Origin: Solirhodobacter olei | Lineage (GTDB): Bacteria; Pseudomonadota; Alphaproteobacteria; Rhodobacterales; Rhodobacteraceae | DNA: 64,000 nt | NCBI RefSeq assembly: GCF_004010155.1 | Contig: NZ_RRYH01000018.1 | Coordinates: 62,001 to 126,000 of the forward strand | Direction of reading: 5' to 3' | Part shown: in pieces, positions 7,917 through 55,806 of the stretch | Position numbering within the stretch: the stretch's first letter is position 1 | Layout of the letters: every line of letters begins with the position of its first letter | The notes under the pieces: generated by a model | The model's database searches: none | Seen by the model: the letters and a program-made list of their open reading frames with translations, nothing else | Told to the model about the DNA's origin: nothing | Translations under genes and position numbers: made by a program

Positions 7917-8195
7917 CTAAAGTTGACGGAATTTTTGAATCAAAGTCACCTTCAGGGCCGAAACCCCATGTTCGCTGACCGCGCGGCACCAGCTGTCGAA
8001 CTCCTCGTCGGACAGGCCATAGCGCTTCAGCGCCTCGGGCCGTCCGATCAGGCCGAAGGCGACAGCCTCCACCACCGTGGCCTTGCGGCTGGCCACCCAG
8101 CGGCGGGTCTCCGCCGGCGGCAGGTCCGCGCGGCTGAGGATCCGGCCATCCGGCAGGGTCACCTGGCGTGGTCCATCGACACGTTTGAGATACAT
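7917..8195 (-). CDS. sciP: CtrA inhibitor protein SciP (DUF1153)
   Basis: Small helix-turn-helix protein of 92 residues that, in Caulobacter, binds DNA and CtrA and blocks CtrA-dependent transcription. The sequence starts MYLKRVDGPRQVTLPDGRILSRADLPP, typical of DUF1153, and the helix-turn-helix falls at about residues 35-80 (TVVEAVAFGLIGRPEALKRYGLSDEEF). The ATG at 8195 is the only plausible start. The gene lies directly upstream of ctrA on the same strand with a 95-bp gap that holds the candidate CtrA sites. The repressor and its target are therefore neighbours, which could give a compact feedback loop. Confidence 0.9.
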   Translation of the reverse strand: MYLKRVDGPRQVTLPDGRILSRADLPPAETRRWVASRKATVVEAVAFGLIGRPEALKRYGLSDEEFDSWCRAVSEHGVSALKVTLIQKFRQL

Positions 8196-8267
8196 CCGCC
8201 CAAGGCTCCTCGGTCCCGTTCGCGGCAGTGTTGCCGCCGAGCCTTAAAAGGCGGTGAAACGCGGGGC

Positions 8268-8296
8268 TTGAGACTAGCTCGTATTTTCCCTATCTC
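8268..8296 (+). promoter_or_regulatory. Candidate promoter of mnmA
   Basis: TTGAGA at 8268-8273, 17 bp, then TATCTC at 8291-8296, about 30 bp before the mnmA start. This is the best sigma-70-like pair in the gap between divergent sciP and mnmA. Confidence 0.4.
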
Positions 8297-8325
8297 TTCG
8301 GCTTTCCCAGCAAGGCCCGGATGCC

Positions 8326-9471
8326 ATGGCCCTCGACCGCCCCACGCCCCTCAATTCGCTCGGCTTCGCCAAACCCCCGGCAGAGACGCGCGTCGTCGTC
8401 GCCATGTCGGGCGGCGTCGACAGCTCGGTCGTGGCCGCGATGCTGGCCGAGGAGGGCTATGACGTCGTCGGCGTCACGCTGCAGCTCTACGACCACGGCG
8501 CGGCGCTGGCCAAGAAGGGCGCCTGCTGCGCCGGCCGCGACATCCACGACGCCCGCCGGGTGGCGGAGACGATGGGCTTCCCGCATTACGTGCTCGATTA
8601 CGAGAATATCTTCCGCGACGCGGTGATCGACGAGTTCGCCGATGCCTATCTCGCCGGCGCGACCCCGGTTCCCTGCATCCGCTGCAACGAGCGGGTGAAG
8701 TTCAAGGACCTGATGGCGACCGCGCGCGAGCTGGAGGCCGACTGCATGGCCACCGGCCATTACATCCAGCGCAAGATGGGCGCCGAGGGGCCGGAACTGC
8801 ACCGCGCCGCCGATGCCGCCCGCGACCAGAGCTATTTCCTGTTCTCGACCACGGCCGAGCAGCTCTCCTACCTGCGTTTCCCGCTGGGCCACCTCGGCTC
8901 GAAGGCCGAGACGCGCGCGCTCGCCGCCCGCTACGGCCTGCCCGTCGCCGACAAGCCCGACAGCCAGGACATCTGCTTCGTCCCCGACGGCAACTACGCC
9001 TCGGTGATCGAGAAGCTGCGCCCCGGCGCCGCCGACCCGGGCGAGATCGTCGACATGGAGGGCCGGGTGCTGGGCGAGCATCGCGGCGTGATCCACTACA
9101 CCATCGGCCAGCGCCGCGGCCTCGGCATCGGCGGGCTGGCCGAGCCGCTCTACGTGGTGAAGCTCGACCCGGAAAGCCGCCGCGTCGTCGTCGGCCCGAA
9201 AGAAGCGCTGGAGACCCGCGTGGTCCCGGTGCGCGAGCTGAACTGGCTGGGCGACGCGCCGCTCACCTCGGCGCCGGAATGGCATATGGAGGTTCGCGTG
9301 CGGTCCACCCGCCCGCCGCGCCCGGCGATCCTGCGGCCAATCTCGGCGACCGAGGCCAAGGTGGAACTCCTGACCCCGGAAGAGGGCGTCAGCCCCGGCC
9401 AGGCCTGCGTGTTCTACGCCCCCGACTCGAGCCGCGTGCTCGGCGGCGGCTGGATCTGGCGCGGCTACTGA
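8326..9471 (+). CDS. mnmA: tRNA-specific 2-thiouridylase MnmA
   Basis: Adds sulfur to U34 of tRNA Lys, Glu and Gln anticodons using ATP and persulfide sulfur relayed by TusE or IscS. Residues 28-34 are the PP-loop SGGVDSS. The catalytic cysteine is C120 in IRCNERVKF, and its partner lies in [11 protein letters not shown]. The C-terminal half is the usual beta-barrel region with [18 protein letters not shown]. Length (381 aa) fits the family. The ATG at 8326 is in frame with a second conserved region right after it; an overlapping ATG at 8321 is out of frame. A copy of the composite intergenic repeat starts 24 bp after the stop. Confidence 0.96.
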
Positions 9472-43391: not shown

Positions 43392-44237
43392 ATGTTCCCC
43401 CGCCCCATCCAGCAAACCCGAGTCACCACCCAGATCGCCTACAGGATCGCGCTGCCCGTAGCGCTGATCATCTGGCTTCTGCCGCTTCTCGGCGTGGCGA
43501 TGACCTCGCTGAAACCCGCCTCCGACCTTGCCAAGGGCAATTACTTCGGCTGGCCCTCGCACCTCGCCTTCGTCAACTACGCCGACGTGTTCCGCAACTC
43601 GCCGATCGCGCAATACATCCTGAACAGCTTCAAGGTGACGATCCCGACGGTGATCGGCGCGGTGGCGCTGTCCTGCATGACCGGCTTCGCGCTCGCGGTC
43701 TACCGCTTCCGGCTGAACCTGGTGATCTTCTTCATCTTCGTGGCGGGCAATTTCGTGCCCTTCCAGATCCTGATGGTGCCGGTGCGCGACCTCACGCTGC
43801 AGCTCGGCCTCTATAACACCATCACCGGGCTCGCGCTCTTCCACATCTCCTTCCAGACCGGCTTCTGCACCCTCTTCATGCGCAACTTCATCCGCGCGCT
43901 GCCCAGCGAGCTGATCGAGGCCGCGCGGGTCGAGGGCGTCAGCGAGGTCAAGATCTTCTGGTACATCGTGCTGCCCCTCATGCGCCCGGCCATCGCGGCG
44001 CTGAGCGTCCTGGTCTTCACCTTCATCTGGAACGACTATTTCTGGGCCACGGTGCTGACCAACGGCTCGTCAACCCAGCCGGTCACGGCGGGCCTTTATT
44101 CGCTGAACGGCCAATGGGTCGCGCAATGGCAGCTGGTCTCCGCCGGCTCCCTCGTCGCAGCCCTGCCGCCGGTCCTGATGTTCTTTGCCATGCAGCGCCA
44201 CTTCATCGCCGGCCTGACGCTGGGAGCCGTGAAGTGA
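43392..44237 (+). CDS. Sugar ABC transporter permease 2
   Basis: 281 residues, MalG/UgpE class, six transmembrane helices, EAA loop EAARVEGVSEVKIFWYIVLPL. It starts 3 bases after the previous stop, and its own stop overlaps the GTG of the alpha-galactosidase gene (GTGA), so transport and hydrolysis are translated together. Confidence 0.93.
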   Translation: MFPRPIQQTRVTTQIAYRIALPVALIIWLLPLLGVAMTSLKPASDLAKGNYFGWPSHLAFVNYADVFRNSPIAQYILNSFKVTIPTVIGAVALSCMTGFALAVYRFRLNLVIFFIFVAGNFVPFQILMVPVRDLTLQLGLYNTITGLALFHISFQTGFCTLFMRNFIRALPSELIEAARVEGVSEVKIFWYIVLPLMRPAIAALSVLVFTFIWNDYFWATVLTNGSSTQPVTAGLYSLNGQWVAQWQLVSAGSLVAALPPVLMFFAMQRHFIAGLTLGAVK

Positions 44238-46303
44238 CCAAGACCTGGCGCCTCGACGCCGGCCTCCAGACCCTCGTCCTCGCCAGTGCCGGGGGCCTGC
44301 CAGAGGCCGTCTACTGGGGCGCGCGCCTGCCCGCGGGCGAAGACCTCGCCACGCTGGCCACGCTCTCCCGGGGCGACGTGACCGGCGGCATGCTCGACAC
44401 CAACGCGCCCCTGTCGCTGACGCCAGAGCCCCGCGCCGCCTTCCCCGGCCAGCCCGGCCTGTCGCTGGCCGAGGCCGACGGCACGCCGCTGGCCCCGCGC
44501 TTCACCTTCGAAGGCGTCGAGGCCACGCCCACCACGCTCCGCCTCACCTCCACCGCCGAGGGCCTGCGCCTGATCCACGAGATCGAGGCCCTCGCCTGCG
44601 GCCAGTTCGCGCTCACGACCCGGCTGGAGGCCTCCCGCCCCCTCCGCCTCGCCTGGCTCGCTGCCCCGGTCCTGCCGGGGCCGCAACAGGGCCGCGAGAT
44701 CGTAGAGCCCTCGGGCCGCTGGATCGGAGAGTTCCAGCTCCACGCCACGCCCTGGTCGCCCGGCGCGCGCCTGCGCGACGCCCGCCAGGGCCGCTCGGGG
44801 CAGGAACACCCGCCCTACCTCCTGCTGCCCGCCGCGGGCGCGACCAATACGGCCGGCGAGGTCCACGCCCTCAGCTACGGCTGGTCCGGCGGCCACCGGA
44901 TGGTGGCCGAGGAGCTTGCCGACGGCCGCCGCCAGATCCAGTTCGGCCACGCCTGGGGGGCAGAGACCGCCCCCGCCACGCGCTTCGAGACGGCCCCCCT
45001 CTACGCCGCCTATTCGGCCGAAGGCTTCAACGGCATCGCCGAGGCGAACCAGGCCCTGATCCGCGCCCTCGTCCGCTTCCCCGATCCCGACCGCCCGCGC
45101 CCGGTGCATTACAACTGCTGGGAGGCGGTCTATTTCAAACACGCCCTCGGGCCCCTCTCCGAGATCGCCACCCGCGCGGCGGCGATCGGGGCGGAGCGCT
45201 TCGTGCTCGACGACGGCTGGTTCGGTCGCCGCGACGACGACACCACCAGCCTCGGCGACTGGACGGTGGACCGGCGCAAATGGCCCGAGGGGCTGCACCC
45301 GCTGATCGCCCATGTCCACAGCCTCGGCATGACCTTCGGCCTCTGGGTCGAGCCCGAGATGGTGAACCCGGAAAGCGATCTCTTCCGCGCCCACCCCGAC
45401 TGGGCGCTCGGCCCCGCCGACCAGACCCTCGGCCGCCACCAGATGGTGCTCGACCTCTCCCGCGCCGAGGTCCGCGACCATCTGTTCGAGGTACTCTCGG
45501 CCATCCTCGCCGAATACCAGATCGACTACCTGAAATGGGACCACAACCGCCTGCTGCCGGTGACCGAGGCCGCCCAGACCCGCGGCATCTACGCCCTGCT
45601 CGACCGGCTGCGCGAGGCCTTCCCGCAGGTGGAGATCGAAAGCTGCGCCTCCGGCGGTGGCCGGATCGACCCCGGCATCCTCGCCCGCACCCACCGCGTC
45701 TGGCTGTCGGACAGCAATGACGCCATCGAACGGCTCAGGATCCAGCATGACGCGGCGCTCTTCCTGCCGCCCGAGGTCACCGGCAGCCATGTCGGTCCGC
45801 GCCATTGCCACACCTCCGGCCGCGAGCTTCCGATGTCCTTTCGCGCCCGCGTGGCGGCCCAGCGGCACATGGGCTTCGAAATGGACCTGCGCGAGCTGAC
45901 CGAGGACGAGGCCGCAACCCTCACCGCCGTCACCGCCTGGTGGAAGGCGGGCCGCGACTGGCGCCTGTCCGGCCGCATCCTGCGGCTCGACACCCCCGAC
46001 CCGAGCGTGACGGCAGAGATCCAGATCGCCCGGGACGGCAGCCGCTTCAGCCTCTTCGCCGGCCATTTCGCGACCAGCGCGCAGATCCTGCCGCGCCCGC
46101 TCCGCCTGACCGGCCTCGACCCCGATGCCCGCTATCGGGTGACACTCCTGAACCCCGAGGACGCCTCCCCCCGCAGCCGCGGCGAGGTGGCGCTGAAACG
46201 GGGGCCGGTGGTGCTGTCCGGCCGGGCACTGATGCAGGCGGGGCTGACGCTCCCCTGCGCCGACCCCGCCACGCTCTGGGTGCTGGACGGCGAGCGGCTC
46301 TAG
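44234..46303 (+). CDS. Alpha-galactosidase, glycoside hydrolase family 36
   Basis: 689 residues from a GTG. GH36 layout: N-terminal beta-sandwich (1-285), catalytic barrel (290-600), C-terminal beta domain. The nucleophile is D436 in YLKWDHNR, and the acid/base lies in WLSDSNDA (residues 490-497). LDDGWFGRRDDD and WVEPEMV line the pocket. No signal peptide, so melibiose- or raffinose-type galactosides would be cut in the cytoplasm after uptake. Followed by genes for galactonate breakdown and a beta-galactosidase. Confidence 0.94.
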   Translation: MTKTWRLDAGLQTLVLASAGGLPEAVYWGARLPAGEDLATLATLSRGDVTGGMLDTNAPLSLTPEPRAAFPGQPGLSLAEADGTPLAPRFTFEGVEATPTTLRLTSTAEGLRLIHEIEALACGQFALTTRLEASRPLRLAWLAAPVLPGPQQGREIVEPSGRWIGEFQLHATPWSPGARLRDARQGRSGQEHPPYLLLPAAGATNTAGEVHALSYGWSGGHRMVAEELADGRRQIQFGHAWGAETAPATRFETAPLYAAYSAEGFNGIAEANQALIRALVRFPDPDRPRPVHYNCWEAVYFKHALGPLSEIATRAAAIGAERFVLDDGWFGRRDDDTTSLGDWTVDRRKWPEGLHPLIAHVHSLGMTFGLWVEPEMVNPESDLFRAHPDWALGPADQTLGRHQMVLDLSRAEVRDHLFEVLSAILAEYQIDYLKWDHNRLLPVTEAAQTRGIYALLDRLREAFPQVEIESCASGGGRIDPGILARTHRVWLSDSNDAIERLRIQHDAALFLPPEVTGSHVGPRHCHTSGRELPMSFRARVAAQRHMGFEMDLRELTEDEAATLTAVTAWWKAGRDWRLSGRILRLDTPDPSVTAEIQIARDGSRFSLFAGHFATSAQILPRPLRLTGLDPDARYRVTLLNPEDASPRSRGEVALKRGPVVLSGRALMQAGLTLPCADPATLWVLDGERL

Positions 46304-46343
46304 ACCCTGCCAACCCCGGCTCAACGAACCCATAGAGGACAAG

Positions 46344-47306
46344 GTGACAGACGCAGCCCCCGCAACCGGCCCAGGAACCGAAAGCCCGATGTCCGCCCGG
46401 ATCGAAGCAGAATGGATCGCCGTCGACTGGGGCACCACCAACCTGCGCGCCTGGGCGATGGGGGCTGGGGGAGAGACCCTCGCACTGGCCTCCTCAGACG
46501 AGGGCATGGGCCGGCTGAACCGCGCGGGCTATGAGCCCGCGCTGCTGCGGCTCATCCAGACCTGGCTCGCGCCCTCCCGCGCTACGCCCGTCGTGGTCTG
46601 CGGCATGGCCGGCAGCCGCCAGGGCTGGATCGAGGCGCCCTACCGGCCGGTGCCCTGCGCCCCGGTGGACGGCCAGGGCCTCACCCCCGTCCCCACCGCC
46701 GATCCGCGGCTCTCCGTCCATATCATCCCCGGCCTCTGCCAGCGCGACCCGGCCGATGTGATGCGCGGCGAGGAAACCCAGATCGCCGGCTTCATGGCCG
46801 AGACCCCGGGGTTCGAGGGCGTCCTCTGCCTCCCCGGCACCCATACCAAATGGGTCCGGCTGAAAGCGGGTCGCGTGACCGCCTTCCAGACCTTCCTGAC
46901 CGGAGAGCTGTTCTCGCTCCTCTCCAGGCACTCGGTGCTCTCGCACCTGATGGCTGGCGAGGGCTGGGACCAGCAGGCGTTCGAAACCGCCCTCGACGCG
47001 GCGCTGGCCGCGCCCGAGCGCACCTCCGCCAGTCTCTTCTCACTGCGCGCCGAGGCGCTGCTGGAGGGTCTCGCACCCGCGGCCGCCCGCGCCCGCCTCT
47101 CCGCCACGCTGATCGGCGCCGAGCTGGCCGCGGCCCGGCCGTTCTGGCAGGATCAGGCCCTCGCCGTCGTCGGCGCCGCGGCGGTCGCCCGCGCCTATGC
47201 CTCGGCCCTCACCGGCCAGGGCCGGCCGGTCCTGACCACAAGCGGCGACAGCGCCGCGCTTGCCGGGCTCGCCATGGCCCGCGCCCTGATGAAAGAGACG
47301 ACATGA
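46344..47306 (+). CDS. dgoK: 2-Dehydro-3-deoxygalactonokinase
   Basis: Phosphorylates 2-keto-3-deoxygalactonate, the fourth step of the De Ley-Doudoroff galactose pathway. 320 residues, DgoK family, with the ASKHA phosphate motif IAVDWGTTNLRAW and CGMAGSRQGW, PGTHTKWV. The GTG at 46344 was chosen because GAGG lies 5 bases upstream; an ATG at 46389 would shorten the protein by 15 residues, which are not conserved, so the start is open. Overlaps the aldolase gene by 4 bases. Confidence 0.93.
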   Translation: MTDAAPATGPGTESPMSARIEAEWIAVDWGTTNLRAWAMGAGGETLALASSDEGMGRLNRAGYEPALLRLIQTWLAPSRATPVVVCGMAGSRQGWIEAPYRPVPCAPVDGQGLTPVPTADPRLSVHIIPGLCQRDPADVMRGEETQIAGFMAETPGFEGVLCLPGTHTKWVRLKAGRVTAFQTFLTGELFSLLSRHSVLSHLMAGEGWDQQAFETALDAALAAPERTSASLFSLRAEALLEGLAPAAARARLSATLIGAELAAARPFWQDQALAVVGAAAVARAYASALTGQGRPVLTTSGDSAALAGLAMARALMKETT

Positions 47307-47914
47307 CCCGTTCCCTCATCGCGATCCTCCGCGGCATCCGGCCAGAGGAGGCCGTGGAGACCGGCGCCGCTCTGATCACGGCCGGGATCACCTCGATCGA
47401 GGTGCCGCTGAACTCGCCCGACCCGCTCGACAGCATCGCGCGGCTGGCCGAGGCCTTCGGCGACCGGGCCCAGATCGGCGCCGGCACCGTGCTGACGGCG
47501 GCGGCCGTGGCCGATGTCGCGGCGGCGGGCGGAAAGCTCATCGTCTCGCCCAACATGGACCCCGCCGTGATCGCCGAGACGAAGCGACATGGCATGGAAA
47601 GCTGGCCCGGCACCTTCACCCCCACCGAATGCTTCGCGGCGCTGGCCGCCGGCGCGGATGGGCTGAAGATCTTCCCCGCAAACCTCGTCGGCCCCGCCGG
47701 GCTGAAGGCGATCCGCGCCGTCCTTCCGCCCGAGACCCGCATCTACGCCGTCGGCGGCGCGGGGGCGGAGAATTTCGCCGACTGGTTCGCCGCAGGTGCG
47801 GACGGCTTCGGCATCGGCACCGCGCTCTACAAACCCGGCCAGTCCGCGGCAGAGACCGCCGCAAAGGCCGCCCGCATCACCGCCGCCTATGACGCCGCAC
47901 GGCCCGCCGGCTGA
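47303..47914 (+). CDS. dgoA: 2-Dehydro-3-deoxy-6-phosphogalactonate aldolase
   Basis: Splits KDPGal to pyruvate and glyceraldehyde 3-phosphate, the last step of the pathway. 203 residues, KDPG-aldolase fold: LIAILRGIRPEEAVE, the Glu in GITSIEVPLNSP and the Schiff-base lysine in GLKIFPANLVGP. Its coupling to dgoK separates it from KDPG aldolase of the Entner-Doudoroff route. The dehydrogenase, lactonase and dehydratase of the earlier steps are not in the window. Confidence 0.94.
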   Translation: MTRSLIAILRGIRPEEAVETGAALITAGITSIEVPLNSPDPLDSIARLAEAFGDRAQIGAGTVLTAAAVADVAAAGGKLIVSPNMDPAVIAETKRHGMESWPGTFTPTECFAALAAGADGLKIFPANLVGPAGLKAIRAVLPPETRIYAVGGAGAENFADWFAAGADGFGIGTALYKPGQSAAETAAKAARITAAYDAARPAG

Positions 47915-47942
47915 CCCCGCCACGGCCCCGAAAGGACCCCAG

Positions 47943-49865
47943 ATGACCACCGCCTCCCCGCCCCTCACACGCGCCCTCGGTGTCTGCTACTACCCCGAAC
48001 ACTGGCCGCAGGAAATCTGGGCCGAGGATGCCGCCCGCATGGCCGAAGCCGGGATCACCTGGGTCCGCATCGGCGAATTCGCCTGGTCGCGGATCGAACC
48101 CGCCCCGGGCAGGTTCGACTGGGACTGGCTCGACACCGCGATCGAAACCCTCGGCGCCGCCGGGCTCAAGGTCGTGCTCGGCACACCCACCGCCACGCCG
48201 CCGCGCTGGCTCGCCACGAAACTGCCCGACATGTTCGCGGTCGATGCAGAGGGCCGCCCGCGCGGCTTCGGCTCGCGCCGGCATTACGACTTCAGCCACC
48301 GCGGCTTCCGCGCGGAATGCGCCCGTATCGTCACCGCGCTTGCCACCCGCTACGGCGCGAACCCCCATGTCGCCGCCTGGCAGACCGACAACGAATACGG
48401 CTGCCACGACACGATCCTCAGCTATTCCCCCGCGGCGCTCTCGGCCTTCCGCGACTGGCTGGCGCAGAAATACCAGAGCCCCGAGGCCCTCAACCGCGCC
48501 TGGGGCAATGTTTTCTGGTCGATGGACTATTCGGGCTTCGATGAGATCGGCCTGCCGAACCTCACCGTGACCGAGGCCAACCCCTCCCATGTGATGGACC
48601 TCCGCCGCTTCGCCTCGGACGAGGTCGTGTCCTTCAACCGCCTGCAGGTAGAGATCATCCGCAGGCATTCCGCGGCCCCCATCCTTCACAACTACATGGG
48701 CCGGGTGGTGGACTTCGACCATTTCAAGGTCGGCGCCGATCTCGACGCGGCAAGCTGGGACAGCTACCCGCTCGGCTTCCTGATCGGCCGGCTGGGGGCG
48801 TCCGAGGCCCACAAGGCCCGCTTCCTGCGCCAGGGCGACCCCGACAACCAGGCCTTTCACCACGACCTCTACCGCGCTGTCGGGCGCGGCCGCTGGTGGG
48901 TGATGGAACAGCAGCCCGGCCCGGTGAACTGGGCGCCCTGGAACGCCGACCCGCTGCCCGGCATGGCCCGCCTCTGGGCTTGGGAGGCCTTCGCCCACGG
49001 GGCGGAAACCGTCAGCTACTTCCGCTGGCGCCAGGCTCCCTTTGCGCAGGAACAGATGCATGCAGGCCTCCTGCGCCCCGACAGCGCCGCGGCACCCGCG
49101 CTGGCGGAAGCGACGCAGGTCGCCCGCGAACTTGCGCTGGAACCCGAGGCCGGCACCGCCGCCGCCCCCGTCGCCCTCGTCTTCGATTACGAGAGCGCCT
49201 GGGCCTGGAAGATCCAGCCCCAGGGCCAGGATTTCGACTATTTCGACCTGGTGACCAGCACCTACCGCGGCCTGCGCGCGCTCGGTCTGAACATCGACAT
49301 CCTGCCGCCCGACACGGGCGACCTCTCGGCCTACCGGCTCGTCCTCGTCCCCGGCCTCGCCACGCTCTCGGCGCCCTTGACCGCGGCGCTCGCCCGCTTT
49401 CAGGGCCGCGCCATCCTCGGCCCGCGCACCAACGCCAAGACGGAGGATTTCGCCATCCCCGTGCCGCTTCCCCCTGCGCTCCCCGGGCTCGACTGCACCG
49501 TGGCGCGGGTCGAAAGCCTGCCGCCCGGCACCGAAATCCCGCTTTCGGGCGGCGGCGCGATCCAGCGCTGGCACGAGGTTCTGGAGGGCAGCGCCGAGGC
49601 GCGCCTGACCACCACCACCGGCGCCCCCGTCGCGATGACGGCGGGTCCCCTCACCTATCTCGGCGGCTGGCTGGACGAGACGGCGCTGAAAGACCTCCTG
49701 CGCGCCGCCTGCGCCGAAACCGGGGTCGAGACGACGGAGATGCCCGAGGGCCTGCGCCGCCGCGACACCTCGCGCCTCCGGATCCTGCTGAACTACAACC
49801 CCGAACCGGTGACCTTCGACGGCGTCACCATCCCGGCCGCGGGCGTCCATATCAGCCCGCTCTGA
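47943..49865 (+). CDS. Beta-galactosidase, glycoside hydrolase family 42
   Basis: 640 residues, GH42 A4-type. Acid/base E151 in WQTDNEYGCH and nucleophile E322 in WWVMEQQPGPVNW are in the usual places. N-terminal barrel to about 390, trimer/glutaminase-like domain to about 580, small beta domain at the end. AAAGGA lies upstream of the ATG. No signal peptide. Together with the GH36 enzyme it lets the operon use both alpha- and beta-galactosides. Confidence 0.94.
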   Translation: MTTASPPLTRALGVCYYPEHWPQEIWAEDAARMAEAGITWVRIGEFAWSRIEPAPGRFDWDWLDTAIETLGAAGLKVVLGTPTATPPRWLATKLPDMFAVDAEGRPRGFGSRRHYDFSHRGFRAECARIVTALATRYGANPHVAAWQTDNEYGCHDTILSYSPAALSAFRDWLAQKYQSPEALNRAWGNVFWSMDYSGFDEIGLPNLTVTEANPSHVMDLRRFASDEVVSFNRLQVEIIRRHSAAPILHNYMGRVVDFDHFKVGADLDAASWDSYPLGFLIGRLGASEAHKARFLRQGDPDNQAFHHDLYRAVGRGRWWVMEQQPGPVNWAPWNADPLPGMARLWAWEAFAHGAETVSYFRWRQAPFAQEQMHAGLLRPDSAAAPALAEATQVARELALEPEAGTAAAPVALVFDYESAWAWKIQPQGQDFDYFDLVTSTYRGLRALGLNIDILPPDTGDLSAYRLVLVPGLATLSAPLTAALARFQGRAILGPRTNAKTEDFAIPVPLPPALPGLDCTVARVESLPPGTEIPLSGGGAIQRWHEVLEGSAEARLTTTTGAPVAMTAGPLTYLGGWLDETALKDLLRAACAETGVETTEMPEGLRRRDTSRLRILLNYNPEPVTFDGVTIPAAGVHISPL

Positions 49866-49912: not shown

Positions 49913-50983
49913 TCAGCCGGCCGCATCCTCCGGCACCGGGAAGACCATCCCGTCGAAAAGCTTCCGCGCCGTGCGGAGCGTCCCGGCCGACAGCACCTCG
50001 CCCCCCGGCCCGATCTCCAGCAGTACTTCCGCCGCACCGCTCGGATGCTCGATGCGGTACCGCCCGTCCGCCGGACGAACCGCCAGCCCCGCCGCCGGGC
50101 TCCCTTCCAACAGGCAGGCGGTGGCGACAGAGACCGCGGCGAACACCCCGACGGAGGCATGGACACGGTGCGGAATGAAACTCCGTGTGCTGATCGCCCC
50201 TCCGGCCATCGGGGCGGAGACCAGCGTCATCTTCGGCACCGAGGCCTCGGTGACATCGCCAAGGTTCATCATCGGCCCCGCCTTCAGCCGGATCGCCTCG
50301 ATCCGCGCCTTGAGATCGGCGTCCCCCTCCAGCGCCTCCCGGCTCTCCTGCCCGCTCAGCCCGAAGTCGGCGGCGCGCAGGATCACGCAGGGCATGCCGT
50401 TGTCGATCAGCGTCGCCTCCACGCCATCGATCACGTCGACCGCCCGGCCGGTCGGCAGAAGCGCCCCGCACATCGACCCCGCGATGCTGTCGAACATCAG
50501 GGGCACCGCCGCGTGATGCCCCGGCACCCCGTCGATCACCGTCGTGCCGCGGTAGCTGACCACGCCCCCCGGCGTCGCCACCCGCGCCACCGCGACCTCA
50601 CCGGTGTTGACCATGTGGATCCTGACCGGCGTCTCCCCCTCCCGCGCCGGCACCAGTCCCCGCTCGATTGCCGCCGGCCCTACACCGGCAAGGATATTGC
50701 CGCAGCCCTGCCGGTCCGAAACCAGCGCCTGATCGACGAAGACCTGCAGGAAGAGGTAATCCACATCCGCATCCGCCCGCGCGGAGGCCGAGAGGACCGC
50801 GACCTTCGAGGTCAGCGGATCCGCCCCGCCGATCCCGTCGATCTGCCGCGGATCGGGCGAGCCCATGACGCGCAGCAGAAGCGCGTCACGCGCGGCCGGG
50901 TCGGCGGGCAGGTCCCCGGACAGGAAATACGCCCCCTTCGAGGTGCCCCCGCGCATCCAGAGACAGCGGATGCCCTCGCTCAT
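49913..50983 (-). CDS. 4-Oxalomesaconate tautomerase, GalD/PrpF type
   Basis: 356 residues, PrpF-like fold of two similar halves. It starts MSEGIRCLWMRGGTSKGAYFLSGDLP, and QGCGNILAGVGPAAIERG is typical of the family. GalD of Pseudomonas converts the keto and enol forms of 4-oxalomesaconate. The neighbours on the same strand (GalC-type aldolase, GalB-type hydratase) make this role more likely than 2-methylaconitate isomerase (PrpF). It is last in the minus-strand unit, separated from the aldolase gene by a gap with an iteron array and a type B repeat. Confidence 0.85.
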   Translation of the reverse strand: MSEGIRCLWMRGGTSKGAYFLSGDLPADPAARDALLLRVMGSPDPRQIDGIGGADPLTSKVAVLSASARADADVDYLFLQVFVDQALVSDRQGCGNILAGVGPAAIERGLVPAREGETPVRIHMVNTGEVAVARVATPGGVVSYRGTTVIDGVPGHHAAVPLMFDSIAGSMCGALLPTGRAVDVIDGVEATLIDNGMPCVILRAADFGLSGQESREALEGDADLKARIEAIRLKAGPMMNLGDVTEASVPKMTLVSAPMAGGAISTRSFIPHRVHASVGVFAAVSVATACLLEGSPAAGLAVRPADGRYRIEHPSGAAEVLLEIGPGGEVLSAGTLRTARKLFDGMVFPVPEDAAG

Positions 50984-50994
50984 CGGGCGGGCCT

Positions 50995-51055
50995 CCGGGG
51001 GCAGCCGCGCAGGGTCTCTGCCTCCGCGCCCCCGGGATATTTGCGGACAGAAGAA
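50995..51055 (+). repeat. Intergenic repeat type B, copy 2
   Basis: Outer arms CCGGGGGC (50995-51002) and GCCCCCGG (51028-51035), then GGGATATTTGCGGACAGAAG. The tail differs from the copy at 7031-7076 (minus strand) by one or two bases, but the hairpin loop is longer. It lies just upstream of the GalD-type gene's start codon. Confidence 0.65.
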
Positions 51056-51101
51056 AGGGCGCGGGGTGTTGCGCGGGGCGCGGGGGGACCGTCCCGATTT
51101 A

Positions 51102-51145
51102 CGGTGCTCTTACGGTGCGAAAGCGGTGCGGAAACGGTGGCACGG
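51102..51145 (+). repeat. Four 11-bp iterons, copy 2
   Basis: CGGTGCTCTTA, CGGTGCGAAAG, CGGTGCGGAAA, CGGTGGCACGG. Same unit length, unit order and left flank (CCCGATTTA) as the array at 21387-21430. It ends 3 bases before the stop of the aldolase gene. Confidence 0.7.
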
Positions 51146-51148
51146 CAG

Positions 51149-51823
51149 TCAGACATATTTCAGCCCCTTCGCCGCCAGCGCCTCGCGCATCTGGTACATG
51201 TCGAGGCCGAGCTCTCCCGCCGCCAGCCGCGCGCGCTTGGCCGCCTCGTTCGCCAGCCGCGCCTCCGCCGCCGCCAGCACCTCCGCCGCCGCCGCGCGGG
51301 GGACGACGACGACCCCGTCGTCGTCGGCCACCACCACGTCGCCGGGGTTGACCGCCTGTCCGGCGCAGACCACCGGCACGTTGACCGAGCCGAGCGTCGC
51401 TTTGACGGTACCCTGCGCGCTGATCGCCTTGGACCAGACCGGAAAGCCCATCGCGGTCAGGTCCCGCACGTCGCGCACGCCCGCGTCGATCACCAGCCCG
51501 CGGCAGCCCCGCGCCATCGCCGAGGTCGCCAGCAGATCGCCAAAATAGCCGTTGTCGCAAGGGCTTGTGGGCGCGAGGACGAGGATGTCGCCCTCCCTGA
51601 CCTGCTCGATCGCGACATGCAGCATCCAGTTGTCGCCCGGCGGGGCAGAGATCGTCACCGCCGATCCCGCGACCTGCGCGCCGGCCCAGATCGGCCGCAT
51701 GTGCGAGGCCAGGCACCCGGTCCGGCCCTGCGCCTCATGCACCGTGGCGACCCCCGCCGCCGCGAGCCCCGCGATCACCTTCGGGTCGGCCCGCTCGATA
51801 TCCTGCACCACGACAGCGCCCAT
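51149..51823 (-). CDS. 4-Carboxy-4-hydroxy-2-oxoadipate aldolase, GalC/LigK type (RraA-like)
   Basis: 224 residues, RraA-like fold. The class II pyruvate aldolase signature D-X20-R-D is D96 with R117-D118 ([10 protein letters not shown] then GVRDVRD). These enzymes split CHA to pyruvate and oxaloacetate and can decarboxylate oxaloacetate. RNase E inhibitor RraA lacks this context. The ATG at 51823 is preceded by GGGAAGGAGAGAAGCG. Confidence 0.88.
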
Positions 51824-51852
51824 CGCTTCTCTCCTTCCCGGCGTCCCGCCCT

Positions 51853-52815
51853 TCAGTCCTTCGTCACCGGCGGCGTGCCGTGGGTGTGGAAGGTCTCGAT
51901 CGTCTTCAACCCCCAGGCCTGGCCCTTCTTCCGGTCCGCCTCCGTCCAGACCACCGGCTCCCAGTCCGGTGCGAGGATCAGCCGCGCCCCGGCATTGGCC
52001 AGCTCCACCCGGTTGCCCGCCGGTTCCCAGACATAGAGGAAGAACGAGCCCTGGATGGCGTGCTTGTGCGGCCCGGTTTCGATATGAACGCCGTTTTCCA
52101 GCATGATGTCAGCCGCGCGCAGGATGTCCTCGCGGGTGTCGGTCGCATAGGTCACATGGTGCAGACGGCCGGTACCGCCGCCGCGCTCCTCCGAGCAGAC
52201 CAGATCGTAGGTCTTGTTGTTGCAGCTGAACCAGACCCCGCCGATGCGGCCGTTGTCGAGCTGGATGTATTCGGTGACCCGGGAACCCAGCGTCAGCGCC
52301 GCCCAGTCGCGGAAGGCCGCGGCGTCCTCGCCCAGCAGGTTCACATGGTCGATCCGCCGCGGACAGGCCCCCTGGGCGTGGAATTTGGAGGCGAGATTCT
52401 TCAGCGCCGAAGCATCGCCCGGCGGCGGGCGGTTGGTGTCCCAGTAGATTTCGAAGACATGGCCGAAGGGATCCTCCCAGCGATAGGCACGGCCATGGCC
52501 GGCATCGCCCTCGACCCAGCCGATCTTCCTGTAGGGGCTGGCCTCGATCACCTCGACACGACGCTCCAGCGCCTCCGGCGAGGCCGCCCGGTAGGCGACA
52601 TGGCCGACGCCGGTGGTGTGGTGCCGTGTCAGCTTCAGCGAGTGGAATTCGTAATCGTCCCAGGCCCTGAGATAGGCCGATGCCCCGTCCTGACCGGACA
52701 GCTTCAGCCCGTAGACGCGGGTGAAGAAATCCAGGCTTTCCTCGAACCGGTCGGTATAGACCTCGACATGGGCCAGATGGGCAATCTCGAAGCTCGGGTT
52801 CGTCGGTGCGGTCAT
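51853..52815 (-). CDS. Extradiol ring-cleavage dioxygenase, catechol 2,3-dioxygenase-like (VOC superfamily)
   Basis: 320 residues in two VOC repeats. Metal ligands H157 (RRIDHVNL), H220 (RLHHVTYA) and E271 (GNRVELAN) give the type I 2-His-1-Glu iron site. The C-terminal half is close to Xyl[26 protein letters not shown] (two parts), with the conserved H252 and Y261. Where XylE has the second-sphere H199, this protein seems to have Y203. It sits between the GalC- and GalB-type genes, so it probably opens the ring that feeds 4-oxalomesaconate, for example gallate. That substrate is inferred; a methylated or other catechol is possible. Confidence 0.85.
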
Positions 52816-52825
52816 CTCTGCCCCC

Positions 52826-53584
52826 TCACAATTCGTCCACCGTGCGCGGGAAGACGCTCTGGAACCCTTCGGCATATTTCGCCGCGCGCCCCCCGGCCTG
52901 CCCGCCGGAGTTGCGGCGGAAGTGATTGCCGCGGTTCTCCGCAACATTGGTATAATAGTCCCAGAGATGCTCCTGCCCCTCCATGCATTCGATGGCGGCG
53001 CGCTTCTTGCCCCAGACCGGCGTGATGTCGAGGAAGACATCCGGCTTCCAGCCCATCTGCTCGGTCTGGTGCGGCTCGAACAGGTAGAGCTGCGGCGCGC
53101 CGAGCACCTTCTCGCCCGGGTTATGGCCCCAGGCCTGAGCGATCATCCGGCATTCCAGCGCCACCTGCGTCGCGTACATGTGGTCGGTGTTGTAGGGATC
53201 GTAGGACGAATGGCTGAGCATGAAGGACGGCTGCACCCGCCGGATCACCTCGACCAGCCTGTACTTGTCGTCATCGCTCAGCCGCAGCGGGTAGTCGCCG
53301 AGATCGAGGCAGACCAGCTCGTGAACGCCAAGCGCCTCGGCCGCCCGCTCCGCCTCCGCGCGCCGCGCGGCCTTGACCTTCTCCAGCGTCATCCCCGGCT
53401 GCTTCCAGAGCTTGGCGCTTTCCCCGCGCTCGCCGAAGGAGAGGCAGACCACCGTCACCTGGTAGCCCATCTCGGCATGAAGCGCGATCGCGCCGCCGCA
53501 GCGCCAGACGAAATCGGCGGCATGGGCGCTGATCACCAGCGCCGTCTTGGGGGCCGGCTTCGGCGCGGTCGGGGCGGCGGGCAT
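52826..53584 (-). CDS. 4-Oxalomesaconate hydratase, GalB type (PIG-L family)
   Basis: 252 residues, PIG-L/LmbE fold. The zinc motif is the hydratase variant SAHAADFVWRCGG (H21, D24) instead of AHPDDE, as in Pseudomonas GalB, together with SHSSYDPYNTDHMYAT. GalB hydrates 4-oxalomesaconate to CHA, the substrate of the aldolase two genes on. An N-deacetylase role is less likely because of this variant and the neighbours. AAGGAG lies 6 bases upstream of the ATG. First gene of the minus-strand unit. Confidence 0.87.
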   Translation of the reverse strand: MPAAPTAPKPAPKTALVISAHAADFVWRCGGAIALHAEMGYQVTVVCLSFGERGESAKLWKQPGMTLEKVKAARRAEAERAAEALGVHELVCLDLGDYPLRLSDDDKYRLVEVIRRVQPSFMLSHSSYDPYNTDHMYATQVALECRMIAQAWGHNPGEKVLGAPQLYLFEPHQTEQMGWKPDVFLDITPVWGKKRAAIECMEGQEHLWDYYTNVAENRGNHFRRNSGGQAGGRAAKYAEGFQSVFPRTVDEL

Positions 53585-53752: not shown

Positions 53753-54640
53753 GTGAGCGAGACAGCCGAAACCGCCCGGATCGCCTTCATCGGCTTCGGC
53801 GAGGCCGGGCGCGCCTTCGCAGGCGGCCTCGCCCTCGGCGGCACCGGGCGGGCCACGGCTTATGACCTGAAATCGCGCGACCCAGCGACGGCCGCTGCCA
53901 TGGCAGCCTGCCAGGCCGAGGCCGGCGTCGCGGGCCATGACAGCCCGGCCGGGGCGCTTTCCGGCGCGACGGCCGTCTTCTGCCTCGTCACCGCGGACCA
54001 GGCCCTTGCGGCGGCAGAGGCGGCGGCGCCCCACCTTCCCCCCGGCGCTTTCTGGTTCGACGGAAATTCCTGCGCCCCCGGCACCAAGCGCGCGGCGGCG
54101 GACCTCGTGGCGCGCCACGGCGGGCGCTACGTCGACATGGCGATCATGGCGCCGGTCCACCCCCGCCGGCATCTGACGCCGGTCCTTCTCGCCGGCCCCG
54201 ATGCCGAACCCGCCGCGCGCTTCCTCACCGCCCTCGGCATGGCCCCGAAGATCGCGGGGCCCACGGTGGGCGAGGCCTCCGCCATCAAGATGATCCGCTC
54301 CGTCATGGTGAAGGGGGTCGAGGCGCTGACCGCCGAGTGCCTCCTCGCCGCCCGCCGCGCCGGGGTGGAGGAGGCCGTGCTCGCCTCGCTCCAGGCCTCC
54401 GACCCGGGCAGCGACTGGGCGAAGCGCGCGGCCTACAACCTGGAACGCATGATGGTCCACGGCACCCGCCGCGCCGCCGAGATGCGCGAAGTCGCCGCCA
54501 CCCTGCGCGAACTCGGCCTGCCCGACCGCATGGCCAGCGCCACGGTGGACTGGCAGGCGGAGATCGGCGCGCTGGGGCTGAGCGGCGGGCCGGAGGATGC
54601 GGCAGACCGCGCCGACCGCATCCTAGACGCCCGGAAATGA
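53753..54640 (+). CDS. NAD(P)-dependent dehydrogenase with DUF1932 (6-phosphogluconate dehydrogenase-like)
   Basis: 295 residues from a GTG. Rossmann start ARIAFIGFGEAGRAFAGGLA, substrate loop WFDGNSCAPGTK, and the helical DUF1932 half from about residue 185 with the catalytic-type lysine in EASAIKMIRSVMVKG. Beta-hydroxyacid dehydrogenase superfamily; substrate unknown. It is divergent from the dioxygenase unit and coupled to the LysR gene (ATGA), so it may act on an intermediate or side product of ring cleavage. GGGGAGAACACC precedes the start. Confidence 0.82.
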   Translation: MSETAETARIAFIGFGEAGRAFAGGLALGGTGRATAYDLKSRDPATAAAMAACQAEAGVAGHDSPAGALSGATAVFCLVTADQALAAAEAAAPHLPPGAFWFDGNSCAPGTKRAAADLVARHGGRYVDMAIMAPVHPRRHLTPVLLAGPDAEPAARFLTALGMAPKIAGPTVGEASAIKMIRSVMVKGVEALTAECLLAARRAGVEEAVLASLQASDPGSDWAKRAAYNLERMMVHGTRRAAEMREVAATLRELGLPDRMASATVDWQAEIGALGLSGGPEDAADRADRILDARK

Positions 54641-55806
54641 AAGAGAACCTCCGCCACCTGCGCGTATTCCTCGCGGTCGCGGATCTCGGTTCGATCACCC
54701 GGGCGGCGGAGGCCTGCAACGTCACCCAGCCCGCCGTGACCCAGGCGACGGCAAAGCTGGAACGCGCTGCGGGCACGGCGCTCTTCCGCAGGTCCACGCA
54801 GGGTGTCTTTCCCACCCCGGCGGGCGAGGCCCTGGTCATCCGCGCGCGGCGCGCCTTCGCGCTGCTCGACCCGGCGCTCTCGGATCTTGCACCCCGGCTG
54901 CGCCTGACCGCCACCACCGCCCAGCTCCAGGCGCTGATCGCCATGCGCGAGGCGGAGAATTTCACCCTCGCCGCCCGCCGCCTCGGCCGCGCCCAGCCCA
55001 CTGTCCATCGCGCCATCACCCAGCTGGAGCAGGAAGCCGCCCGCCCGCTTTTCGAGCGCACATCCTACGGCATGGTCGCGACCCGGCCCGCCCAGGCCCT
55101 CGCCCAGGCCGCCCGCCTCGCCTTCGTCGAACTCGACCAGGCCGAGGCCGACCTTGCCGAGGCCACGGGCCGCGAGGCCGGCGGCCTGACCATCGGCGCC
55201 ATGCCTCTGTCGCGCAGCCACGTCCTGCCCCGCGCCATCGCGCGCTTCCGCGAGGCCCGCCCGCGCCTGCCGCTCAGGGTGCTCGACGGGCCCTATGCCG
55301 ATCTCCTCGCCGGGCTCCGGCGGGGCGAGATCGACTTCCTGATCGGCGCCCTGCGCGACCCCGCCCCGATTGCCGACGTGGTGCAGGAGGTGCTCTTTCT
55401 CGACGACCTCGCGCTGGTCGCCCGCCACGGTCATCCCCTCCTCTCCGGCCGGCCAATCACGGTCGAGGCGCTCTCCGGCTTTCCTTGGGTGGTGGCCCCC
55501 TCCGGCACCCCGACGCGGCAGCATTTCGACGCGATGTTCGCGGCCGCCAACGTGCCCCGCCCCATAAGCATCGTGGAGTCAGGCTCGATGATCCTGATGC
55601 GAGAGCTTTTGCGCCTCAGCGACCACCTCGGCTGCATCTCCCGCCGTCAGGTCGCCCCGGAGCTGGCACAGGGCACGTTCGCGCTGCTGCCCCGCGGCGT
55701 CGACGGCACCGAGCGCCCAATAGGGCTGACCTTTCGCGAGGGCTGGGCGCCGACCCGGGCGCAGGCGGATTTTCTGAACGCGCTGCGGGACGTGACCGCG
55801 GATTGA
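54637..55806 (+). CDS. LysR-family regulator with two N-terminal helix-turn-helix domains
   Basis: 389 residues, about 90 more than a normal LysR protein. HTH 1 is at residues 5-64 (LRVFLAVADLGSITRAAEACNVTQPAVTQA), and a second, separate LysR-type HTH is at 95-154 (LQALIAMREAENFTLAARRLGRAQPTVHRA). The effector domain covers about 184-385. The doubling looks intact, with no frameshift. It probably controls the divergent oxalomesaconate genes and the coupled dehydrogenase. Binding of longer or paired sites is a natural guess. Confidence 0.9.
   Translation: MKENLRHLRVFLAVADLGSITRAAEACNVTQPAVTQATAKLERAAGTALFRRSTQGVFPTPAGEALVIRARRAFALLDPALSDLAPRLRLTATTAQLQALIAMREAENFTLAARRLGRAQPTVHRAITQLEQEAARPLFERTSYGMVATRPAQALAQAARLAFVELDQAEADLAEATGREAGGLTIGAMPLSRSHVLPRAIARFREARPRLPLRVLDGPYADLLAGLRRGEIDFLIGALRDPAPIADVVQEVLFLDDLALVARHGHPLLSGRPITVEALSGFPWVVAPSGTPTRQHFDAMFAAANVPRPISIVESGSMILMRELLRLSDHLGCISRRQVAPELAQGTFALLPRGVDGTERPIGLTFREGWAPTRAQADFLNALRDVTAD

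Follow-up and report, generated by a model that had tools for sequence, protein, structure and literature searches.

The question raised by this locus is how a gal-type operon obtains the 4-oxalomesaconate (OMA) that its enzymes consume when the dioxygenase encoded among them is a VOC (type I) enzyme and not a member of the LigB superfamily (type II) to which GalA and DesB belong. The operon lies in a stretch of Solirhodobacter olei DNA (assembly GCF_004010155.1, contig NZ_RRYH01000018.1, positions 62,001–126,000 of the forward strand; 64,000 nt), the whole of which is referred to here as the window. From its genomic context, the VOC enzyme is probably a gallate dioxygenase, not homologous to GalA/DesB, that converts gallate to OMA. 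The sequence-only reading of the window had put this VOC enzyme forward as a possible non-homologous dioxygenase for gallate or a related compound, and the comparative context assembled below supports that proposal as a hypothesis.

The gal operon and its dioxygenase

Four closely spaced genes on the minus strand constitute the operon. They are galB, encoding a PIG-L-type 4-oxalomesaconate (enol) hydratase (52826–53584; 252 aa), the gene for the VOC extradiol dioxygenase, predicted to be a gallate dioxygenase (51853–52815; 320 aa), galC/ligK, encoding 4-carboxy-4-hydroxy-2-oxoadipate aldolase (51149–51823; 224 aa), and galD, encoding 4-oxalomesaconate tautomerase (49913–50983; 356 aa). GalD exceeds the cut-off of the NCBIfam 4-oxalomesaconate tautomerase model NF033377 (508.5 against 440 bits) and matches PDB entries 6p3j and 6p3h, named (4E)-oxalomesaconate Delta-isomerase (487 and 484 bits), and GalC exceeds that of the LigK equivalog TIGR02798 (383.7 against 304.5 bits) and matches PDB 3noj (300 bits). 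GalB reached no NCBIfam model cut-off; it matches Pfam PIG-L, and only one PDB entry, 5cgz ('4-oxalmesaconate hydratase'; 321.6 bits), matches it at E≤1e-10. Judged by these matches, all three proteins are well assigned and the predicted enzyme set of a gal (OMA) operon is present, and a source of OMA is therefore needed. The four genes are those that had been recognized from the translations, and the family and structure matches agree with those earlier assignments.

The dioxygenase itself matches the Pfam Glyoxalase family (PF00903), with Glyoxalase_4 below cut-off and nothing else; no LigB match was obtained in either the NCBIfam or the Pfam scans. Among NCBIfam models it scores best with catechol 2,3-dioxygenase (TIGR03211), at 284.7 bits, under the equivalog cut-off of 320.2. 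An alternative, longer open reading frame (ORF) of 395 aa, ending at 53040, overlaps galB. The AlphaFold model of the protein has a pLDDT (predicted local distance difference test score) of 81.4, with residues 1–4 and 299–320 below 50. Foldseek places it in the VOC fold, the nearest structures being 3lm4 and AphC (7q2a), at E of about 1e-31, and its fold neighbours including AphC, LapB and catechol 2,3-dioxygenase 1mpy.

Ring-cleavage genes elsewhere in the genome

The sequence-only reading had noted that the window contains no LigB-type dioxygenase, and had named a genuine GalA or LigAB gene elsewhere in the genome as one finding that would overturn the VOC proposal. A search of the whole assembly (4.78 Mb in 122 contigs, completeness listed as 100%) extends the former statement to the genome, within the reach of the searches made, and leaves the proposal standing. 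The domain search of the genome found no LigA domain and a single LigB-superfamily gene (265 aa), whose product has as its only NCBIfam match at E≤1e-5 the 4,5-DOPA-extradiol-dioxygenase model, at 151 bits below the cut-off of 233. A GalA or LigAB gene elsewhere in the genome was rejected on these two grounds, so that no GalA, DesB or LigAB was found to feed the operon. The VOC protein, used as query against the same genome at E≤1e-3, matched only itself. A 2-pyrone-4,6-dicarboxylate (PDC) route was likewise rejected for this genome, in which nothing closer than 35% identity to a LigI-like protein was found; the label LigI-like is inferred from the position of that gene in LigAB-GalBCD clusters, and the sole NCBIfam match of the protein is 4-sulfomuconolactone hydrolase, below cut-off.

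Three intradiol-dioxygenase matches are present in the genome, two of them adjacent on one contig and read by position as pcaHG for protocatechuate. A LigM-type O-demethylase (629 bits against a cut-off of 580) is encoded on another contig than the operon, beside a GntR gene, and is 83–85% identical to LigM genes located within the VOC loci of other genomes.

Gene neighbourhoods of close homologues

The comparison of gene neighbourhoods that had been proposed for this dioxygenase was carried out on 80 close homologue loci, the best 80 of at least 558 relatives (76–83% identity), mainly from Rhodobacterales and Hyphomicrobiales; the gene calling placed the VOC gene in its own cluster for 77 of them. 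The linkage recurs: GalB, GalC and GalD genes occur together in 63/80 loci, one or two of them in a further 7 and none in 10, and in 54/80 all four genes lie on the same strand within 5 kb. Five of the 17 loci without the full GalBCD set have a contig end within 2 kb of the VOC gene. Transport and demethylation genes accompany some of the loci, with a LigM-type gene in 18, the TRAP (tripartite ATP-independent periplasmic) transporter gene dctP in 25 and a DUF1932 gene in 28 of the 80. The cluster of LigM-type genes takes its name from a single member, which scores 609.5 bits against the cut-off of 580 and also matches solved LigM structures.

Two loci illustrate how the surroundings of the VOC gene bear on its substrate. 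In Maritimibacter (L056), genes for GntR, LigM, DctP, DctQ, DctM, VOC, GalB, GalC, GalD, PurU, a methylenetetrahydrofolate reductase-like protein (a weak match, E=1.6e-5, below cut-off) and LysR follow one another on one strand, and genes for LigB, LigA and a PcaD-like hydrolase lie beside the operon on the other. On plasmid pAt of the walnut strain Agrobacterium tumefaciens 186, the order on one strand is GalB (PIG-L), VOC, GalC, GalD and a tannase (Pfam Tannase, 437.9 bits); many near-identical walnut plasmids are listed for this pAt type and apparently represent one lineage. The VOC-GalBCD linkage, the pAt tannase and the linkage and co-occurrence of LigM support gallate as the substrate, and gene context as a whole points to gallate and methoxylated gallates.

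Several other features of these neighbourhoods were recorded. In L006, L010, L021 and L042 (cluster c35, e.g., L010 5682–8900), the gene directly upstream of the DUF1932-VOC pair encodes a fusion of a reductive dehalogenase with a ferredoxin/reductase module (nearest PDB entry 4ras). Loci L065, L068, L069 and L079 have a DOPA-type LigB gene near the VOC gene (tested in L065, the others assigned by cluster) and carry a divergent GalD-GalB-GalC set, the GalB of which is 53% identical to that of the window. A gene resembling cobalamin-independent methionine synthase is found next to or near the VOC gene in L163 (8505–9608), L164 (10538–11737), L040 and L075, and beside GalBCD genes in Pantoea (L178); it could possibly provide the methyl acceptor step in O-demethylation. 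In the latter locus, from Pantoea piersonii, GalC and GalD genes preceded by a GalB gene are situated ∼6 kb from the VOC gene. The Pantoea sp. At-9b plasmid (L160) has a 75% identical VOC homologue between ATP-binding cassette importers and a flavin mononucleotide-dependent monooxygenase, and GalBCD genes were not found in 9 kb.

Distribution in the family

The wider distribution was surveyed in 295 genomes, taken as Rhodobacteraceae, four of which (G217, G258, G018, and G279) have the same VOC coordinates as the close homologue loci L002, L003, L004 and L013. A VOC match at E≤1e-60 was obtained in 50 genomes, of which 49 were counted, G254 (39% identical, with His in place of the active-site Tyr discussed below) being dropped. 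A LigM-type gene (E≤1e-120) is present in 45 genomes and is strongly associated with the VOC gene, occurring in 37/49 genomes with it vs. 8/246 without it (odds ratio 92, p=8e-29), in Fisher tests that, here as below, ignore shared ancestry. LigM exceeds its cut-off in 39 genomes, 33 of which have the VOC gene; five of the other six have a LigA domain, so that 38/39 have one or the other. The two genes lie within 10 kb of each other in 15 of the 37 genomes with both; distances were computed for 16 genomes in which a single contig carries both, the remaining one (G034) giving 30 kb, and G188, in which they share a contig at more than 1 Mb apart, was left out of the count.

A LigA domain was detected in 29/295 genomes, four of which also have the VOC gene; 45/49 VOC genomes thus have no LigA domain. 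Four genomes (G005, G222, G229, and G097) have a confirmed canonical fused gallate dioxygenase (NF009904); theirs are the LigA matches with an open frame of at least 436 aa. High scores for an OMA tautomerase were obtained in 72 genomes, comprising 36 with the VOC gene only, 21 with LigA only, four with both and 11 with neither, at a line of 486 bits that was set after the scores had been seen and under which 9/49 VOC genomes fall. A GalD gene was recorded within 10 kb of the VOC gene in 32/49 VOC genomes, counting among the matches listed those of at least 481 bits together with a partial one in G133, weaker matches being left out. TRAP genes like those of the VOC loci (DctP and DctM, 64–74% identical) are also found beside the canonical gallate dioxygenase in L107, L108 and L109. 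One LigA-containing locus, L111, has a single ORF (8175–9221) in which a PcaD-like alpha/beta hydrolase is joined to a LigA domain, adjoining a LigB gene, which suggests joint action of the hydrolase with LigAB, along the lines proposed for MgaC with MgaAB.

By non-orthologous displacement, the VOC clade with the active-site Tyr may well have taken over gallate ring opening and feed GalBCD, being ∼12 times commoner in the family (49/295) than the canonical fused gallate dioxygenase (4/295), and may so link lignin methoxyaromatics and tannins to central metabolism.

Active site and phylogeny

The 2-His-1-carboxylate metal ligands of the VOC enzyme, H157, H220 and E271, are retained in every printed row of the alignment, bearing out the intact 2-His-1-Glu site described earlier. 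Alignment A1 contained the window protein and representatives of 43 of the 80 loci, and the tree was built from 49 of the 133 aligned rows. Fold and metal ligands are common to this protein and the type I enzymes AphC/3lm4 from Rhodococcus (3lm4, 37.3% identical to the window protein), LapB (3hpv) and homoprotocatechuate 2,3-dioxygenase (HPCD; 1f1x), both 27–28% identical, and XylE. Unlike all of these, the window enzyme has OMA-pathway neighbours and carries a tyrosine, Tyr203 (codon at 52207–52209, minus strand, counted from the start at 52815), at the position of a conserved second-sphere His of type I enzymes, His200 in HPCD. This substitution had not been mentioned in the sequence-only reading, and the His is regarded here as conserved in the class but not as strictly defining it. 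The two HPCD arginines that bind the substrate carboxylate (R243 and R293) align with Thr and Gly in the window protein.

The tyrosine is found in 124/129 homologue rows (some loci being represented twice) and in PDB 9wgj, whereas His occupies the position in five rows and in 3/4 PDB references. The five His rows come from four genes: L119 contributes two and L120 one, and the fourth is a single gene represented as both L157 and L171; the homologue in L171 (46% identical) adjoins a 4-hydroxy-2-oxovalerate aldolase gene. In the tree, in which some reference branches are very long, a branch supported at 95/90 separates the rows with Tyr from all others. PDB 9wgj, deposited under the name 'Catechol 1,2-dioxygenase', is 47.0% identical to the window enzyme over 315 columns and lies basal in the same clade; a literature search on its code gave no paper. 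A link between Tyr203 and the trihydroxylated nature of the substrate is conjectural.

Proposed pathway and alternative substrates

In the proposed mechanism, the VOC enzyme would bind Fe(II) or another divalent metal through H157, H220 and E271 and would chelate two neighbouring hydroxyls of gallate, and the ring would be opened next to the carbon bearing the third hydroxyl to give OMA directly. OMA would then be tautomerized by GalD, hydrated by GalB and split by GalC into pyruvate and oxaloacetate, as the strong family matches of these proteins suggest; the three steps are established in Pseudomonas. Linkage suggests that gallate could be supplied by O-demethylation of syringate or 3-O-methylgallate through the LigM-type enzyme encoded elsewhere in the genome and, in some relatives, from tannins through tannase.

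The same reaction, gallate to OMA with GalBCD downstream, is thus predicted as for GalA/DesB, enzymes of the LigB plus LigA family with similar TRAP neighbours in L107–L109, although the window enzyme is a VOC protein. Type II extradiol dioxygenases include DesB, LigAB and DesZ (PMC3962378), and gallate dioxygenases are placed in the LigB superfamily in AromaDeg (PMC4250580). The syringate system of Pseudomonas sp. NGC7 combines MgaAB with GalBCD, and the ring-cleavage genes listed in its description are galA, desB, desZ, ligAB and mgaAB (PMC12314914). GalBCD as end pathway, a LysR activator (a candidate one in the window), a GntR regulator and O-demethylation are common to the NGC7 and VOC systems, but NGC7 uses the LigB/LigA-type MgaAB, and VanAB, and the terms 'voc' and 'extradiol' do not appear in the main text of that report (PMC12314914). 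A literature search, outside which most subscription journals lay, listed no match recognized as a VOC gallate dioxygenase, and the main text of PMC11705938 contains neither 'gallate' nor 'oxalomesaconate.'

A number of observations weigh against the assignment of gallate. In S. olei, LigM is unlinked to the operon and no tannase was found in the genome at E≤1e-40. The pAt tannase had no other match among 174 loci at E≤1e-15, A. vitis has a carboxylesterase where pAt has the tannase, and across the family the association of tannase with VOC is weak (10/49 vs. 20/246, p=0.017, Fisher test). Mutual exclusion of VOC and LigA was rejected (4/49 vs. 25/246, odds ratio 0.8), and in 17/49 VOC genomes the GalD matches listed include none within 10 kb of the VOC gene. 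G005 encodes a canonical gallate dioxygenase (720 bits) in one run with TRAP genes and the VOC gene, so that the latter would be redundant there or act on something else. Of the 11 genomes with an OMA tautomerase but neither VOC nor LigA, eight were checked and a LigB-superfamily gene was not found in any (L121 in G048, L122 in G074, L123 in G084, L124 in G025, L125 in G091, L127 in G149, L128 in G002, and L132 in G235); GalB and GalD are present in all eight and GalC was called in seven, often with LysR and DUF1932, indicating that another feeder can exist.

A phylum survey for more distant relatives gave VOC matches at E≤1e-50 in 20/398 genomes, and 13 distant neighbourhoods were fetched with ∼9 kb on either side. 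GalB, GalC and GalD all fall within the stretch in L162, L163, L164 and L172, and GalB and GalC in L169 and L174, but none of the three was found in L165–L168, L170, L171 or L173; GalBCD are absent within that distance from 5/6 loci of family f8 (58–60% identical) and from family member L173 (66%). On a Thermus oshimai plasmid (L175), a VOC gene (59.5% identity) is followed by genes for GntR, DUF6282, PIG-L, GalC and a DUF1932 protein and preceded by a divergent aldehyde dehydrogenase gene (best NCBIfam model HpaE, below cut-off), with a 4-hydroxybenzoate 3-monooxygenase nearby, neighbours that suggest protocatechuate. In Roseomonas (57.8%), the genes before VOC encode a small hypothetical protein (taken for LigA from its position only), a class III extradiol dioxygenase and an alpha/beta hydrolase, and further along lie those for the alpha subunit of a ring-hydroxylating oxygenase, GntR and a PDR/VanB-family reductase. 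These contexts indicate that substrates may differ across the wider VOC clade; some relatives are located close to a LigB-type gene, and others close to genes for an aldehyde dehydrogenase and 4-hydroxybenzoate hydroxylase, which makes 3-O-methylgallate or protocatechuate possible.

It is conceivable, although unlikely, that the VOC enzyme mainly cleaves 3-O-methylgallate to the methyl ester 4-carboxy-2-hydroxy-6-methoxy-6-oxohexa-2,4-dienoate (CHMOD) or to PDC, which other enzymes would convert to OMA in the manner proposed for MgaAB, MgaC and MgaD of Pseudomonas sp. NGC7, a precedent (PMC12314914) that accords with the linkage of LigM-type genes to VOC, with the Roseomonas cluster and with the LigA, LigB and PcaD-like hydrolase genes beside the operon in L056. 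The family scans of the six-gene window cluster (the operon with its two divergent neighbours) detected, however, neither an ester hydrolase nor a PDC hydrolase gene, and the genome offers a LigI-like match of only 35% identity; a LigM-type enzyme can, moreover, remove the second methyl group, and the pAt tannase would yield gallate and not a methyl ether. The cleavage of another trihydroxylated or halogenated aromatic acid, such as a halogenated gallate or a pyrogallol-type compound, seems improbable: the reductive-dehalogenase/oxidoreductase fusion just upstream of DUF1932-VOC that would favour it occurs in only 4/80 loci, and the same type of VOC enzyme is found with tannase and LigM elsewhere.

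Protocatechuate as substrate is quite improbable. It would require 4,5-cleavage and a dehydrogenase oxidizing the semialdehyde to 4-carboxy-2-hydroxymuconate for consumption by GalDBC, a scheme consistent with the Thermus neighbourhood and with the presence of a DUF1932 oxidoreductase near VOC in 27/77 loci. Against it, family scans of the window cluster detected neither an aldehyde dehydrogenase nor a LigC-like or LigI-like gene (LigC was not sought genome-wide), the genome has the intradiol pair read as pcaHG, and a LigAB cluster (L138) likewise contains DUF1932, together with a Gfo/Idh-type gene that is taken for LigC. That the enzyme is an ordinary catechol 2,3-dioxygenase sitting in the operon by chance is highly improbable; its best NCBIfam model and its fold neighbours agree with such an activity, but the score falls under the equivalog cut-off, the co-location with GalBCD recurs in 63/80 loci, the enzyme belongs to the Tyr203 clade, and family scans of the six window genes revealed no gene of the hydroxymuconic-semialdehyde pathway (the 80 loci were not checked systematically for these).

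Adjacent genes

Divergent from the operon are two plus-strand genes, one for a DUF1932 NAD-binding oxidoreductase assigned by Pfam (53753–54640) and one for a LysR-family regulator (54637–55806), the former lying between galB and the latter. The idea that the DUF1932 protein partners VOC specifically was rejected, since it is also found in LigAB-GalBCD clusters and in GalBCD clusters with neither dioxygenase. The LysR protein, which matches a PcaQ-like model below cut-off, is a candidate GalR-like activator; the effector of GalR is OMA, and in Escherichia coli the response to gallate requires galA (PMC9942251). Two HTH_1 stretches are present in the window LysR, and homologues in many VOC loci match it over ∼380 aa, so that the doubled DNA-binding domain may be conserved.

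The genes adjoining the operon on its other side (44114–49865, plus strand) presumably encode an alpha-galactosidase, a 2-dehydro-3-deoxygalactonokinase, a 2-keto-3-deoxy-6-phosphogluconate-type aldolase and a beta-galactosidase, going by the look of their translations alone.

Implications

Gallate and 3-O-methylgallate lie on the route by which the carbon of syringyl lignin and tannins is channelled, and surveys that count LigB-type genes alone would score bacteria such as S. olei as unable to open the ring. If the VOC enzyme is indeed a gallate dioxygenase, it would amount to a second way, unrelated to the first, of catalysing this reaction, would add a new enzyme for lignin funnelling, and would provide a test case for how a second-sphere Tyr supports extradiol cleavage.

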